A DNA stretch of 37,850 bases. Source: Planctomycetota bacterium. Its GTDB lineage: Bacteria; Planctomycetota; UBA8742; JACQVU01; JANLHZ01. Positions 30,256 through 37,850 of this stretch are shown here, piece after piece (position 1 is the first letter of the stretch; the number at the start of each line of letters is the position of its first letter). The stretch covers positions 1 through 37,850 of the forward strand of contig JANLHZ010000101.1 of assembly GCA_024653775.1 (NCBI GenBank), written 5' to 3'. Made by a program: the position numbers and the translations under genes. The notes beneath the pieces were generated by a model. That model made no database searches and had not been told where the DNA came from. It saw nothing but the letters and a program-made list of their open reading frames with translations.

Positions 30256-31029
30256 ATGGCCCGGACCGTTTCCCTCTTTCTGCTGATTTCTCTGTCGATC
30301 CCGGTGTTCCAGGGGTGCTGCCTGCGCTATATCGGCGCGCAGGTCGGCGAAGGCGCGCAGGAAGCGCTCATCGAGGGCAGCGGTCTCACAAAGCTGATGA
30401 TGAACCTTCAGATGGAAGGCGTCGCGGAAAGCGCGAAGGAGTTCCGAAGGCTGATTATGGACGAGGAGACCCGCAGGGCCGTCCACGCGATAGGCGAGGA
30501 GGTGACGAGTTCCGGCACCACGCTTATAGGCGCCGTGGCGGAGCAGGGCGAGCAGAGCACAAAGCGCGCGCTCGAACAGATCGAGAGCGCAATGGCCGAA
30601 CTCGAAGGCAGCGTCGGAAAGATGCAGGAGGCGCTTTTCGGCGACGAGGCGAAGGCGCGCACCGAGGAATTTCTGAACGCGCAGGCGGACATAATCGATG
30701 CGCGCACCGACGAATACCTGAAACGTTTCACCGACGGCGAGGTCCGCCAGGAACTCGATCGCGTCGTCACGAACACCAGCGCGAAGGCGAAGTCCGAGAT
30801 GGACGCGCTCGCCGCGAAGCTGAACGAAATCCTGACGTCGATCAACATGCCGATGATTTACGCGATCGCGGCGCTGATTCTGGTTATCGTGCTCGTGCTG
30901 CTGCTTCCGAACGTTCTGCTGTTCTTCGCCCATCGTCGCGCGCAGAAGACCATCAGGGAGCTGAATCTGAATCTGATTGCGGTGAAGAAGCCGGAAACGC
31001 CGAGTCCGCCCGCTCCGCCGGCGAAGTGA
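30256..31029 (+). CDS. Predicted lipoprotein with long helical region and C-terminal membrane helix
   Basis: 257 residues, family not recognised. The N-terminus is a lipoprotein-type signal (lipobox FQGC, Cys21, followed by a second Cys). Residues about 30-205 are almost all amphipathic helix, rich in Ala, Glu and Lys, with coiled-coil character (for example EEVTSSGTTLIGAVAEQGEQ, LEQIESAMAELEGSVGKMQE). A strong hydrophobic helix follows at about 215-238 (IYAIAALILVIVLVLLLPNVLLF), then basic HRRAQK and a Pro-rich tail. A lipid anchor at one end and a membrane helix at the other could pin both ends, perhaps to the same membrane. It is divergent from hemB. It precedes the capsid-like cluster on the same strand but is 200 bases away and looks like host sequence. 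Confidence 0.6.
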   Translation: MARTVSLFLLISLSIPVFQGCCLRYIGAQVGEGAQEALIEGSGLTKLMMNLQMEGVAESAKEFRRLIMDEETRRAVHAIGEEVTSSGTTLIGAVAEQGEQSTKRALEQIESAMAELEGSVGKMQEALFGDEAKARTEEFLNAQADIIDARTDEYLKRFTDGEVRQELDRVVTNTSAKAKSEMDALAAKLNEILTSINMPMIYAIAALILVIVLVLLLPNVLLFFAHRRAQKTIRELNLNLIAVKKPETPSPPAPPAK

Positions 31030-31141
31030 TGTGCGCCAGAACGGCTGCGAACACAAGTTCATGCTAACGAAGTGTCGGATGTCTCATGGTCCGTCCCGGA
31101 ATTCAGGCGCGCGCAACCTGGGCGTCGATAAATTTTTCCGA

Positions 31142-31802: not shown

Positions 31803-32798
31803 ATGGCAAACCTCAAAAACGTACCGAAGATGATAAACCGCGCCACGCTCTACGCGGAGCAGAGCAATTCGTCGGTTTCCCTCACGAATCCCCCAAGTAC
31901 TATCCAAAGGCTGCTGCTCTGTGTGCAGGGAAAGATAACCAAACCGAACCCGGGAGATACCGCATTCTATTCCGGCGACGGCGTCCTGAACGCGGTGAGA
32001 TACATAACCGTTCTCGTCGACGATGTGGTCGTGTACTCCGCGCCTCCCATCGACGGATTCTGGATGTCGTCCACGATAGATCAAAGTGGCTCGTCGGATA
32101 TGTTCCAGCCGGACGTCAATAATCCCGCGGAAACCGAGTTCTTCTTCAGATGGTGCATGGAAATCAGCTTCGACCTCGCGGGACTCCTCTTCTCCGGCGC
32201 GGGCGGAATATACATGGCGCAAAGCGTACAGATAGATATAGTGTGGGGAACCATCGACGACCTTTTCATCGAAGCGCCAGGCTGGACCCTCTCCGATATG
32301 ACGATGCGCATCAATACGATCTTCACGCAGAAAGGCGATAACGGAAGACTTTATCGAACCGCAAGAACCGGCTCGATCTATCCGCTTCTGGTCGCAGGCG
32401 AGAATCCCCCGATTTTTCCCGCGCCGGGTAGCGCGGTGATTCTTGGACTTTGCGCGATTTTCAGGTACACTGACCTCCCGAATAACTTCAGGAACGAACG
32501 CACCGACGACGCGGTTCGAAACTGGAAGATCGTGGGCTGGGAAGGAGATCTGATAATCGACTCGCTTTATGAAGAGATCAGAGAATACATGTTCGCTACT
32601 CTCGGCTACCGCGTGACTGGTCCGACGATAATGGGACTTCCAACAGGTTTGCTCTGGTGGCCTCTGACCATCGACGGCATCACCGGCGGAGTGATGCAGA
32701 ATTCCACGAATTTCCTGACGAATATTTTCAACGCGGTAAGCCCGCTATTCCCGGGTCTCAAGGTAGACTTCTATACATATAGAAACCTGACGGTGTAA
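31803..32798 (+). CDS. Candidate double-jelly-roll major capsid protein
   Basis: 331 residues; AAGGA lies six bases before the ATG. No signal peptide, no membrane helix and no lipobox. The pattern resembles double-jelly-roll capsid proteins of tailless phages (PRD1/PM2/FLiP-type): IQRLLLCVQGKITKPN, then LNAVRYITVLVDDVVVYSAPP; EFFFRWCMEISFDLAGLL...GIYMAQSVQIDIVWGTIDDLF; then a second set of strands (WTLSDMTMRINTIFT, VILGLCAIFRYTDL, WWPLTIDGITGGVMQNSTNF). Length falls in the usual 270-400 range. The C-terminal SPLFPGLKVDFYTYRNLTV recurs in a remnant at 35126-35210, showing that this gene was once duplicated. The next gene starts one base after its stop. I rely on strand pattern and context, not on an alignment; another beta-rich assembly protein remains possible. 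Confidence 0.5.
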   Translation: MANLKNVPKMINRATLYAEQSNSSVSLTNPPSTIQRLLLCVQGKITKPNPGDTAFYSGDGVLNAVRYITVLVDDVVVYSAPPIDGFWMSSTIDQSGSSDMFQPDVNNPAETEFFFRWCMEISFDLAGLLFSGAGGIYMAQSVQIDIVWGTIDDLFIEAPGWTLSDMTMRINTIFTQKGDNGRLYRTARTGSIYPLLVAGENPPIFPAPGSAVILGLCAIFRYTDLPNNFRNERTDDAVRNWKIVGWEGDLIIDSLYEEIREYMFATLGYRVTGPTIMGLPTGLLWWPLTIDGITGGVMQNSTNFLTNIFNAVSPLFPGLKVDFYTYRNLTV

Positions 32799-32799
32799 T

Positions 32800-33954
32800 A
32801 TGCAAGGATACTTGAAATTCGGATTCAACACCCCGTTTCAGAAAATGCAGCGCGAGCGGTTTCTCGCGTCGTTCAATGAATTAGCGGCGAAATCGAGTAG
32901 CTGCGGATGCCCTTCAGAAGAAGAAATAGCGCCCTCTGGAATTTCCAAACCCGCTGAAAGAAGATCTCCGCGCAGAAATCAGGGCGAATTCAATAATAAA
33001 CAAATGAAGGAAATGGACTTCGAAGAAACAGGTGTTTTCGAGGGACCGTCACCGCTTATAAAAAAATCCGACCTCCATGGCCAGAAAGTGCAGAAAACAC
33101 AGAGTCGTGAATCTAAAGGAGCCTCTAGCGGTCTACCGACAACCATTGGTCGTGTGCCAAGAAATTATCATCAACCTTCTGGATTGGGAGAACAATTTAT
33201 AGGAACTGCGTACACGCCATCTGTGAAACCACCTGGAAGTACGCGTACAGCGCCTCCTATAACGGTAACATCTATCGGAGGCGATGATGACATTTTTTTC
33301 AGACCTCAAGATGACTTCTATCGTGGACCTTCACCTGAACATGGAGGTTATGATTATTGCTTAAAATATGGCAACATATATAGTACATGGGTTCAGGTTT
33401 ATGATGAGACGCTTAACCAAAGTCCAATATACGATAAACCTGTACTTTATCCGGACCCGCCTGAAAATCCAAATATCATCAGATGGAAGATTATTATGAG
33501 GATTCCGACAGTGACAAAATACTGTGAAATCAAATACAGGTATTGCTGCGGGGGATTTTTTGGACTCGATTGCTATTACGAATGGACTTGGAGCGAAGAT
33601 CCTGAAACCAATAATGGGCACAAATGTAGAATTGAAACGCATCTAGGCCCCCCCACTATTGATAGTGAGGGAATAATCGATGTTCGCGGTGCGTGGGACA
33701 TCGTCCAAAGTGGAATAAATAATTTTCTGCAAACAGTATTTAGCGTCGCGCCGATGACCAATCCTATGGATATTTTGGTTGGCATGGGGCAGGCAACTAC
33801 ACAGGCAGCGGGAAATGTAATTGGCACTGAACTAGGCAATAGAATCGTTACATATACCGAAGAGAGATTACTTGGAATGGAGCAAGAAGAAGAAGAAGAA
33901 GAAGAAGATCAAGGGAGACCTCGTCAGAATGGCAATGGAGATGATGCTCAATAG
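32800..33954 (+). CDS. Unknown protein coupled to the capsid-like gene; disordered front, YYEWTWS domain, acidic tail
   Basis: 384 residues; its ATG lies one base after the capsid-like stop codon, so translation is probably coupled. Residues 1-30 are basic and aromatic (YLKFGFNTPFQKMQRERFL); residues about 30-175 are polar and low in structure, with CGCPSEEE and RRSPRR. Residues about 185-275 form a Tyr- and Cys-rich domain with YRYCCGG and DCYYEWTWSED. Residues about 290-350 look helical, partly amphipathic. The end is acidic, with a run of eight Glu coded by GAA/GAG-type triplets (33884-33908), then Gln/Asn/Asp. The domain with YYEWTWS is shared with the lipoprotein at 34006. No known family recognised. 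Could be a minor virion or assembly protein. Base composition shifts to AT-rich within the gene. Confidence 0.6.
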   Translation: MQGYLKFGFNTPFQKMQRERFLASFNELAAKSSSCGCPSEEEIAPSGISKPAERRSPRRNQGEFNNKQMKEMDFEETGVFEGPSPLIKKSDLHGQKVQKTQSRESKGASSGLPTTIGRVPRNYHQPSGLGEQFIGTAYTPSVKPPGSTRTAPPITVTSIGGDDDIFFRPQDDFYRGPSPEHGGYDYCLKYGNIYSTWVQVYDETLNQSPIYDKPVLYPDPPENPNIIRWKIIMRIPTVTKYCEIKYRYCCGGFFGLDCYYEWTWSEDPETNNGHKCRIETHLGPPTIDSEGIIDVRGAWDIVQSGINNFLQTVFSVAPMTNPMDILVGMGQATTQAAGNVIGTELGNRIVTYTEERLLGMEQEEEEEEEDQGRPRQNGNGDDAQ

Positions 33955-34005
33955 ATATAAAATTAATGACTTCCGTCATGACGAAAAAGCATTAGATGAG
34001 GAAAA

Positions 34006-34794
34006 ATGATTTATCTATCGAGATGCATAAAAGAGACCTGCATACCCACAATGCTTTTCATAATGGTATTACTGGTATTTTCCACCGTTTCTTGCGGGTC
34101 CGTCAGTGCATTTAATCAAGTTGTGCATCTTGGAGTCACACCTAAATCAGTCTTAAATAACACTAACCAGTTTCTTTCATCAGAGGAAACAACGCCGCCA
34201 GGAGGGTCACAACATTCCGAATTGACCGTTACTTTTATAAATGGTGACTATGACACATATTACATTAGTTATGACAATTTTTTTCACACTGAAATGCAAT
34301 CAGCTTACGATAATGGTCTAATTTATAATTTATCGTATGCAACGGCAAAAGTAAGGGTGTGGGAACGCGGGACCAATGGCGATTCGGAGTTTTTATTAAT
34401 TGCGGAGCGAGGATCTGATCAAGATGATGATTCTATATTGTGGCGTAAAGTCCGTCGCACTCCCACTGAGGCAATGTTTCGAAAAATATATTTCCGCAGA
34501 AAGTATAGGCAATTTCTGTTTTTCATAGATTATTATTATGAGTGGACTTGGTCTAATGATGTTAGTGAAATGCTGCAATCCAGTATAGATTATGTATTAC
34601 ATTCAGGTATATTAATGTTGCCAGATGAGCCAAGCACTCTATATGAAAATATCTCTCGTTTTTTAGATGAAATCGAAGATTTAACAGATGAGGACATAGA
34701 TACTCTCGAAAAGACAATCAGGTCAATTTTTGGAGAGGACAAGTCTATGTCAATTATAGAAAGAATTAAGACTCTCTCCAAAATGAAGCTGTAA
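34006..34794 (+). CDS. Predicted lipoprotein with YYEWTWS domain
   Basis: 262 residues in a clearly AT-rich stretch; GAGGAAAA stands just before ATG 34006. After a 15-residue lead, a hydrophobic segment ends at the lipobox TVSC (Cys30), so it should be an envelope lipoprotein (a start at Met16 would also give a signal peptide). Residues about 70-190 are beta-rich and Tyr-rich, ending in ILWRKVRRTPTEAMFRKIYF and DYYYEWTWSND. This segment aligns by eye with the matching part of the protein at 32800 (IIRWKIIMRIPTVTKYCEIKY, DCYYEWTWSED). The C-terminal third (about 215-262) is acidic helix (LDEIEDLTDEDIDTLEKTI). No known family recognised. It may be the membrane-anchored form of a shared module, for example a host-side receptor, exclusion or assembly factor; that is speculation. 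Confidence 0.6.
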   Translation: MIYLSRCIKETCIPTMLFIMVLLVFSTVSCGSVSAFNQVVHLGVTPKSVLNNTNQFLSSEETTPPGGSQHSELTVTFINGDYDTYYISYDNFFHTEMQSAYDNGLIYNLSYATAKVRVWERGTNGDSEFLLIAERGSDQDDDSILWRKVRRTPTEAMFRKIYFRRKYRQFLFFIDYYYEWTWSNDVSEMLQSSIDYVLHSGILMLPDEPSTLYENISRFLDEIEDLTDEDIDTLEKTIRSIFGEDKSMSIIERIKTLSKMKL

Positions 34795-34817: not shown

Positions 34818-35114
34818 ATGTCTTCAACAATGCGAAACTTTTCCTTCGACTTATCGCAGGCGCCGGTGAACTCGCAGTTCTACGTGGATGCGAAGAATAT
34901 CGTTTTCGAGGTCGGGGGAGGGGGACCGTTTCCCGCGGGGGGATATTTTCAGGTCGACAGCAACCCGCCGGTACAGATTGGGGGAGCGCTCAATCTTAAT
35001 ATTGGGTTCGTGCAGGAGATTCGGTTCGTTCACGTCGTCCTGCCGCAGGCTAGCGGGTGGTCCGCGGGGATTACGATTTCGAATCTTTCAGAGGTTTCCG
35101 CGCCGCTTATATGA
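34818..35114 (+). CDS. Small virion-like beta protein (98 aa), copy 1
   Basis: 98 residues with no signal or membrane helix. The sequence (SQFYVDAKNIVFEVGGGGPF, AGGYFQVDSNPPVQIGG, ALNLNIGFVQEIRFVHVVLP) follows the pattern of small phage structural proteins that begin with a strand, a GxYFxVDS turn, then a strand ending at F and a run of hydrophobic positions. Start at ATG 34818 is supported by the paralogue at 37543, which has the same length up to the shared RNF-FDLS motif; no ribosome binding site is evident. The gene has the GC-rich composition of the capsid-like gene, unlike its AT-rich neighbour. It is followed at once by a remnant of the capsid-like gene's end, so a whole capsid-like copy once stood here. 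Confidence 0.55.
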   Translation: MSSTMRNFSFDLSQAPVNSQFYVDAKNIVFEVGGGGPFPAGGYFQVDSNPPVQIGGALNLNIGFVQEIRFVHVVLPQASGWSAGITISNLSEVSAPLI

Positions 35115-35210
35115 TATGATATATTTCCGAGCAATTTTTTCAAGACGCGGTCTCCGCTGTTTCCGGAACTCAAGGCGAACTTCTATTCTTACAGAGACCT
35201 GACGGTGTGA
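35115..35210 (+). pseudogene. Remnant of the capsid-like gene's 3' end
   Basis: Between the stop of the 98-residue gene and ATG 35212, about 85 bases (35126-35210) align with the last 90 bases of the capsid-like gene at about 32710-32798, for example the shared CTTCTAT and CCTGACGGTGT. In the frame ending at TGA 35208 it reads SPLFPELKANFYSYRDLTV, against SPLFPGLKVDFYTYRNLTV in the intact gene. There is no start codon and a stop lies at 35112-35114. The next gene starts one base after this TGA, as at the intact copy. Confidence 0.85.
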
Positions 35211-35211
35211 A

Positions 35212-36579: not shown

Positions 36580-36618
36580 CTCAATAATTAACTCTAATTA
36601 TGAAGTATGGGAATTCCA

Positions 36619-37491
36619 ATGAAATATCTATTCTTAACGCTTTTTGCCGTCATGTTGATAGCATCCTGTTTCGATTTGGATTCGTTTGACAGTGCACAAA
36701 GCGATAAACAATTTACGGAACTTACAGAAGCGAATACGCCAGAAGAGCAATTGCAAATTTGGCGGAATAAACGAGTGCTCGCACGCGAAGACAGTGCTTT
36801 TTACATTAGTTTCGCTGGGTTCGACATGGATCTTAACGAGTACGATTGTGATGTAAGCAGTGTTTTGACGCAAAAAAATGCGCATTACCTTGCGGAGTTG
36901 ACAAATCTCAACACATTCGCGTTCGCAGGTGACTTCTCAAACGCAGCTATAGATGATTCGGTTTTTTCGTATCTTTCGGAATTACATAATTTGAATTTCG
37001 TATCAATATCAGGAGCATTTTTTGGCGATCGGACGCTAGAAATTATATCGAAACTTCCACAACTGACGGATTTAATTTTACATTGGGAGACAGGGAGAGT
37101 AACTAACCAAGGAATAGCCTATTTCAGGAACAACAATAGGTTAACCTCGTTAACGCTGGCTGCTTCCACGAGAGAAGAGGACGGGTATGCGCTCGATAAT
37201 GAAGGGATCGAAATCGTATCAACGATCTCCACGCTAGAGGTTTTAGACGTCAATTGCTTTAACATTTCCTCGCAGGCGATTTCCGACATAGCCAAACTTG
37301 AAGAACTATGGATGCTTCGGATCGACGGACTTGCACAGGAAGACGTGGATTATTCTCCTCTCACCTCGCTCGGGAAATTGAAAGCTTTATACATCGATCT
37401 TCCTGTTTCAGAATCAACTAAAGACCAAATCCGGCAAATGTTTTCCGGAAATAACCAGGATATGGATATTAGCTTTGGGTCGAGCAACTAA
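36619..37491 (+). CDS. Leucine-rich-repeat lipoprotein
   Basis: 290 residues from ATG 36619 (GGGA seven bases upstream); the in-frame ATG at 36607 would only add four residues. Lipobox IASC at Cys17. Residues about 20-75 are a polar linker and an unassigned segment (YISFAGFDMDLNEYDCDVSS). Residues about 90-270 contain about six leucine-rich-like repeats of roughly 25 residues (LAELTNLNTFAFAGDFSNAA, LSELHNLNFVSISGAFFGDR, ISKLPQLTDLILHW, ISTLEVLDVNCFNISSQAIS, IAKLEELWMLRIDGLAQED, LTSLGKLKALYIDLP). Such repeats form a curved binding surface, so it probably binds a protein in the envelope. The AT-rich composition resembles the lipoprotein at 34006, not the surrounding GC-rich genes. No partner is evident. 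Confidence 0.7.
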   Translation: MKYLFLTLFAVMLIASCFDLDSFDSAQSDKQFTELTEANTPEEQLQIWRNKRVLAREDSAFYISFAGFDMDLNEYDCDVSSVLTQKNAHYLAELTNLNTFAFAGDFSNAAIDDSVFSYLSELHNLNFVSISGAFFGDRTLEIISKLPQLTDLILHWETGRVTNQGIAYFRNNNRLTSLTLAASTREEDGYALDNEGIEIVSTISTLEVLDVNCFNISSQAISDIAKLEELWMLRIDGLAQEDVDYSPLTSLGKLKALYIDLPVSESTKDQIRQMFSGNNQDMDISFGSSN

Positions 37492-37542: not shown

Positions 37543-37850
37543 ATGTTAGAATCCATCAGAAATTTCTTTTTCGACCTATCGAAAGCGCCGGTGAACTCGC
37601 AGTTCAACGTTGATGCGAAGAATATCGTTTTCGAGGTCGGAGGAGGGGGACCGTTTCCTTCGGGGGGATACATTCAGGTCGATAGCAATTCACCGACGAG
37701 GATCGATGGCGCATTCAAGTTGAATATCGGGTTCGTGAAAAAGGTCAGGTGGATTCATCCCGCGTTATTCACGATAGGCGGAAATAAAAATACCCAAGGC
37801 GCGAACTTTGCAACGGAGGAGGTATCTACGCCCCTTTCCGGAATTGCAAG
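37543..37850 (+). CDS. Small virion-like beta protein, copy 2, cut by window edge
   Basis: An open frame from ATG 37543 to the window end, with no stop. The start MLESIRNFFFDLSKAP is collinear with copy 1 at 34818 (MSSTMRNFSFDLSQAP), and the next part is nearly identical (VDAKNIVFEVGGGGPFPSGG, then IQVDSN). Later it diverges and contains an extra loop (GGNKNTQGANFATEE) absent from copy 1. DNA identity is high in the first half (GCGCCGGTGAACTCGCAGTT shared). The copies arose by duplication with divergence at the far end, as expected for exposed surface loops. By analogy to copy 1, a capsid-like gene may follow just past the window. Confidence 0.6.
   Translation, partial: MLESIRNFFFDLSKAPVNSQFNVDAKNIVFEVGGGGPFPSGGYIQVDSNSPTRIDGAFKLNIGFVKKVRWIHPALFTIGGNKNTQGANFATEEVSTPLSGIA

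Follow-up and report, generated by a model that had tools for sequence, protein, structure and literature searches.

The stretch of DNA analysed here, hereafter the window, is one contig of 37,850 nucleotides (JANLHZ010000101.1) from the 5.4 Mb, 331-contig assembly of a Planctomycetota bacterium (GCA_024653775.1). Towards its right end it carries an element that opens with two coat-like genes, coatS and coatL, followed by two units in tandem, each consisting of a third gene, a lipoprotein gene and a gene of the 98-aa family (Table 1). We refer to the two third-gene products as effector 1 and effector 2, after the role proposed for them below. The effector and partner genes of the first unit are poorer in GC (37-47%) than the coats (53-54%) and than the host DNA of the window (59%).

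A sequence-only reading had noticed the string YYEWTWS in both effector 1 and the lipoprotein encoded behind it. In the 384-aa protein the string occupies residues 259-265 (window 33574-33594), in the 262-aa lipoprotein residues 177-183 (window 34534-34554), and the similarity is real and extends far beyond it. BLASTP aligned the two proteins over 138 columns with 30% identity (E = 4e-12), and the module pair reached a local score of 136, whereas the best of 1000 shuffles scored 63. The stretch upstream of YYEWTWS scored 87 by itself (shuffle maximum 48), while the flanks on either side of the module, N- and C-terminal, were no more alike than shuffled sequence. There are 42 identical aligned positions, including the whole YYEWTWS block, and synonymous sites are saturated between the two copies. 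The relatedness of the segments was thus correctly read, whereas their length is ~130 residues rather than the 90 first proposed. Family searches did not place the two segments in unrelated families; neither falls in any known family, as the module has no match in Pfam, NCBIfam, PHROGs or PADLOC. Profile searches against solved structures gave nothing usable for the module, and its predicted structure, with a mean predicted local distance difference test score (pLDDT) of 32, was unusable.

The same domain is carried on two different N-termini. In effector 1 it follows a tag without a leader, and the predicted cytoplasmic location of this protein agrees with the lack of any signal or membrane segment. 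In the lipoprotein it follows a signal segment and a lipobox (a hydrophobic segment, then TVSC with Cys30), as expected for the membrane anchoring that had been read from the sequence. It may reasonably be inferred that the two modules bind each other or a common partner.

Table 1. Features of the window element, with positions in the window and supporting evidence
Feature	Position	Strand	Evidence
coatS, small coat-like protein, 163 aa	31230..31721	+	N-terminal ~30 residues (VGxIPxxGT) most conserved across 8 genomic copies
coatL, 331 aa, probable double-jelly-roll capsid-like protein	31803..32798	+	AlphaFold2 model; matches to PRD1/PR772 P3
Effector 1, 384 aa, no signal or membrane segment	32800..33954	+	Start 1 nt past coatL stop
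Effector 1 N-terminal tag, residues 1-59	32800..32976	+	44% identity over 59 aa, E 5e-11, to C249 third protein
YYEWTWS module of effector 1, residues 132-267	33193..33600	+	BLASTP, shuffle test, alignment
Lipoprotein, 262 aa, proposed envelope immunity partner of effector 1	34006..34794	+	Hydrophobic segment 12-30, lipobox TVSC; slot of the envelope partners of other cassettes
YYEWTWS module of lipoprotein, residues 55-185	34168..34560	+	BLASTP, shuffle test, alignment
98-aa protein, last gene of unit	34818..35114	+	22 genome matches; dN/dS 0.16 vs C249
Scar, degraded coatL 3' end	35123..35211	+	Local score 45 vs shuffle maximum 16; reads FPSNFFKTRSPLFPELKANFYSYRDLTV* vs coatL C-terminus
Effector 2, 455 aa, no membrane segment	35212..36579	+	Residues 42-106 vs C300 third protein: 43%/65 aa, E 2e-8
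Leucine-rich-repeat (LRR) lipoprotein, 294 aa, proposed immunity partner of effector 2	36607..37491	+	LRR_14 E 4e-6 (below cut-off); lipobox IASC; 47% to C300 paralog
Second 98-aa gene, cut by contig end	37543..37850	+	C-terminus as read not trustworthy

The right end of the window (92 bases, 37759-37850) is identical, in reverse complement, to the beginning of contig C136. The second 98-aa protein leaves its family pattern there, so we take this to be an end of the assembly graph and not the true gene end. A gene just ahead of the element and on its strand (30256-31029) encodes a 257-aa protein that has a signal-like segment at its N-terminus, is helical over a long middle part and has a membrane segment at its C-terminus. 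A dispersed repeat of ~40-50 bp (GCGAACACAATTTCATGTAAACGAAGTGT...) is present at window 31034-31083, where it overlaps the upstream flank of the element, and at C132:38233, C30:9471 and C199:1786.

The coat-like genes

The sequence-only reading had called the gene in front of effector 1 capsid-like, and comparison of folds supports this on a low-confidence AlphaFold2 model built from four paralogs. The P3 proteins of PRD1 and PR772 were the top structural matches of coatL (Z 10.2, residues 7-184), followed by other double-jelly-roll proteins, with the first unrelated row at 5.9. Foldseek likewise placed PRD1 P3 first, with a probability of 1.00 but an E-value of 4e-3, and several double-jelly-roll proteins were among the top matching viral predicted structures. 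coatL is therefore a probable, not a proven, PRD1-type double-jelly-roll coat. None of coatL, coatS and the 98-aa protein belongs to a family in Pfam, NCBIfam, PHROGs or PADLOC, and profile searches against solved structures gave nothing usable for them; for coatS and the 98-aa protein we found neither a family nor a structure match.

Across their genomic copies the coats have ratios of nonsynonymous to synonymous substitution rates (dN/dS) of 0.05-0.18 at dS values of 0.4-1.9, with 0.05 for coatS and 0.10 for coatL against the copies on contig C249. This is purifying selection, and the coats are therefore working genes rather than decaying remnants.

A family of cassettes with exchangeable third genes

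The window element is one of many. Matches to coatS-like genes were found at 8 places in the genome, coatL is present as four full copies and one fragment, and the 98-aa protein has 22 matches, of which a few are weak and one pair is an inverted duplicate. This pair lies on contig C180 (64.7 kb), at whose two ends (L054, L055) ~9.4 kb of identical content stand in inverted orientation. This is probably a hairpin of the assembly, so that its 98-aa gene is counted twice. Contigs around the cassettes carry ordinary chromosomal genes, and many end inside cassette genes, as would be expected where an assembly contains repeats. Wherever it can be read, the gene order is constant: coatS and coatL come first, then a variable third gene, then one or two genes for envelope proteins and last the 98-aa gene.

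Within groups of related coats (coatL 83-92% identical, coatS 66-96%), the third proteins have a constant N-terminal part of 24-60 residues followed by exchangeable, unrelated tails. Between C288 and C249 the coats are 92-96% identical and the third proteins share 44% identity over 59 residues only, with unrelated tails. Third proteins on C244 and C9, of group B (coatL 83% identical), have 30 residues in common, the two effectors on C9 24 residues, and those on C251 and C180, of group C, 44 residues. The first 59 residues of effector 1 are the part kept beside near-identical coats elsewhere in the genome, which bears out the earlier view that this protein is coupled to the capsid-like gene.

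The tails differ from cassette to cassette. In the window the tail of effector 1 is the YYEWTWS module. That of the C249 third protein matches Ntox44 (E = 0.0014, below the cut-off), that of C9 matches PG_binding_3 (E = 2e-4, below the cut-off) and endolysin PHROGs (E = 2e-4), and that of C180 matches DUF3238, a family of uncharacterised function, above the curated cut-off (E = 2e-9). Effectors on C9 and C251 (L020 2319-3857, L053 5661-6977) differ in their tags and ends despite a common 212-residue middle of 40% identity with a peptidoglycan-binding-like segment. On C300 (L025 5470-5751), a 94-aa open reading frame (ORF) shares the initial ~14-16 residues of the 98-aa family and is unrelated to it thereafter, which would fit recombination at the start of the 98-aa gene.

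In all cassettes tested, an envelope-directed protein follows the third protein. A lipobox or a membrane or signal segment was detected in 13 of 13 downstream partners; a membrane or signal segment was found in none of 9 third proteins. The same crude test was positive for 49% of background ORFs.

Displaced, orphan effector-partner units lie behind the main pair both in the window and on C9, where they are marked by scars of coatL. In the window the scar ends at the coatL stop codon and adjoins the start of effector 2, and on C9 a better preserved coatL 3' end precedes the second effector. These scars imply that each second effector once stood directly behind coatL and that a newer unit of effector, partner and 98-aa gene was inserted between them.

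Five elements have direct repeats at their ends, 47-163 bp long and with 83-97% identity between the two copies. The repeated sequence differs from site to site and coincides with the 3' end of a host gene or lies close to one. On C244 a 116-bp direct repeat of the 3' end of mnmA (L019 6592-6707 and 10607-10722) brackets the only complete element, which lies on one contig, is ~4.0 kb long (repeats 4015 bases apart) and has just five genes, among them no integrase, packaging ATPase or replication gene. Read gene by gene, neither this element nor that of the window has a packaging ATPase next to the coat. Of the four tyrosine-integrase genes in the genome, none lies on an element contig that was examined. 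Flanking repeats did not reveal where the window element ends on its right side. A different repeat of ~95 bp, self-matching in both orientations, is dispersed between host genes (L022 6089, L023 5693, L052 5453 and 8732, L054 6431) and has no link to the cassettes.

Our searches for relatives of the core genes found none that were convincing in viral contigs, in species genomes or in 60 to 392 genomes of the phylum; for coatL and the module, phages and plasmids were searched as well, with the same outcome. For viral contigs and species genomes the search relied on short conserved patterns, which distant relatives can escape. Weak matches in the phylum (E = 0.005-0.08) were treated as chance.

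Proposed effectors, immunity proteins and alternative roles

Our best explanation, to which we give an even chance, is that the locus represents one of multiple copies of a polymorphic effector-immunity system built on a capsid-like carrier, with the lipoprotein as the envelope immunity partner. The conserved core would be the double-jelly-roll capsid-like coatL together with the small coat coatS. The third gene would encode an effector tied to the coat, or to a particle formed by it, through docking of its short N-terminal tag, and the C-terminal domain would be exchangeable, toxic cargo acting on the envelope of a target. Envelope proteins from the following gene or genes would protect the producer and its kin, and newer effector-partner units would displace older ones behind coatL. 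In the window the cargo would be the YYEWTWS module, and the lipoprotein a copy of it that acquired a signal peptide and lipid anchor and may neutralise an incoming module by pairing with it or, as a decoy, by occupying its target in the envelope. More tentatively, we propose that the cassettes are small mobile elements whose PRD1-type double-jelly-roll particle delivers interchangeable, tag-loaded antibacterial effectors, each with its envelope immunity protein, that of the window being a lipid-anchored copy of the effector domain.

In favour of an effector-immunity system are the homology confined to the module, the constant tags with unrelated tails, the family matches of these tails, the envelope signals of the downstream partners, the coatL scars in front of second effectors, the likeness of coatL to PRD1 P3, the purifying selection on the coats and the precedent for LRR and lipobox immunity proteins. 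Several points weigh against it. The coatL model is weak, with a mean pLDDT of 43.5, parts of residues 36-178 at 60-76 and a better N-terminal half; only the first jelly roll was matched, and the second half of the model lies below 50. Most tail matches fall below curated cut-offs, and the endolysin-like ones would also suit virion entry enzymes. No lysis or secretion gene that could provide a release route was identified in the cassettes. Further, homology between effector and partner is confined to the window pair among the pairs compared in the genome, and toxin-like immunity proteins are unusual.

We consider it possible, but doubtful, that the cassettes are instead satellites or prophage remnants of PRD1-like tailless phages. 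The third gene would then encode a capsid-anchored spike or entry lysin with a variable tail, and the lipoprotein would be a superinfection-exclusion factor that blocks the receptor or the spike with the same module; superinfection exclusion, already raised by the sequence-only reading, thus remains a rival. A single ordinary tailless prophage had been our candidate for the locus and was demoted to a rival once the C244 element proved complete with five genes. The capsid-like coat suits a virus, but that complete element has no packaging ATPase, replication gene or integrase. The end repeats of the five elements, 47-163 bp at host-gene 3' ends, look as they would after site-specific integration, but the four tyrosine integrases of the genome are off the element contigs examined. 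Endolysin-like tails would suit phage entry, for which the Ntox44-like and DUF3238 tails and the LRR or multi-membrane partners are atypical. Tandem effector-partner units with scars, and the lack of relatives among viral contigs or phages, also speak against satellites. The exit or entry role that had been suggested for the module pair finds less support for similar reasons: given the gene content of C244 and a slot that holds unrelated domains in every cassette, effector-immunity pairs fit better than genes for virus exit or entry. What survives of the earlier idea is that the two modules would meet at the envelope, as predicted both by effector-immunity pairing and by a phage satellite.

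It would seem unlikely that coatL and coatS form a cell-surface or carbohydrate-binding jelly-roll assembly, with the third proteins as displayed enzymes or adhesins and the membrane proteins as their accessories. The double-jelly-roll fold is also found in cellular proteins such as DUF2961 (PMC8812541), and the coats have no sequence match to any capsid family. DUF2961 and other cellular double-jelly-roll proteins are absent among the coatL structural matches listed, which excludes nothing, but the top rows belong to the viral capsid lineage and score well above the unrelated ones. Further, neither coats nor third proteins carry a signal peptide, and the boundaries of the elements resemble those of mobile elements. 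Finally, we find it very improbable that the module likeness is a functionless leftover of duplication and the lipoprotein a decaying copy of an effector tail: the modules are divergent (30%) and saturated at synonymous sites, and the genome has no second pair with such homology, but the lipoprotein occupies the slot of the envelope partner in every other cassette, its frame is intact with a lipobox, and the 42 identical positions include the whole YYEWTWS block.

Comparison with known systems

In the literature searched, we found no paper combining a double jelly-roll with a toxin and immunity protein, or a polymorphic toxin with PRD1. For MuF systems it has been proposed that toxins are packed for delivery into a structure derived from a phage capsid (PMC3482391, Zhang et al. 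2012). The cassettes resemble these in their variable C-terminal domains behind a constant N-terminus and in loading of a capsid type, if effectors are indeed loaded. MuF loci, however, have tailed-phage portal, terminase and capsid genes, in place of which stand coatS and a PRD1-like coatL with no packaging gene; among the cassette proteins scanned, none matched a MuF domain, portal, terminase or capsid gene. In contact-dependent inhibition, orphan CdiA-CT/CdiI modules are explained by displacement by newer pairs (PMC9086364), and there too effector-immunity units occur in tandem, with a remnant of the upstream core gene in front of the downstream unit. Here the constant part is a short tag and each second effector retains a start codon and tag of its own, and no CdiB transporter or CdiA filament domains were matched among the cassette proteins scanned.

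PRD1-type tailless phages (Tectiviridae, Autolykiviridae and related prophages; PMC5894146, PMC11630473) are similar in their double-jelly-roll coat, as judged by fold comparison, and in forming small integrated elements. They differ from the cassettes, which have no packaging ATPase or replication gene, occur as dozens of dispersed pieces with interchangeable cargo and have no detectable sequence relatives. Polymorphic toxin systems are known to include immunity proteins of the LRR and lipobox types (PMC3482391), to which the LRR lipoprotein behind effector 2 and the lipoprotein behind effector 1 can be compared, except that the partner of effector 1 carries the effector's own module.

The logic of the proposed system is that of known polymorphic toxins, while its vehicle differs from MuF and has a fair chance of being of a new kind. 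Known bacterial particle weapons (tailocins, type VI secretion systems and extracellular injection systems) derive from parts of tailed phages. If the effector-immunity reading is true, a PRD1-lineage coat serving as effector carrier would represent a separate origin of a particle weapon and a new vehicle for the delivery of bacterial toxins, in which a capsid-like gene without packaging genes is kept under strong selection in a bacterial chromosome. Loading would rely on a short tag, and the YYEWTWS pair would be a case of immunity that seemingly arose from a copy of the effector domain.
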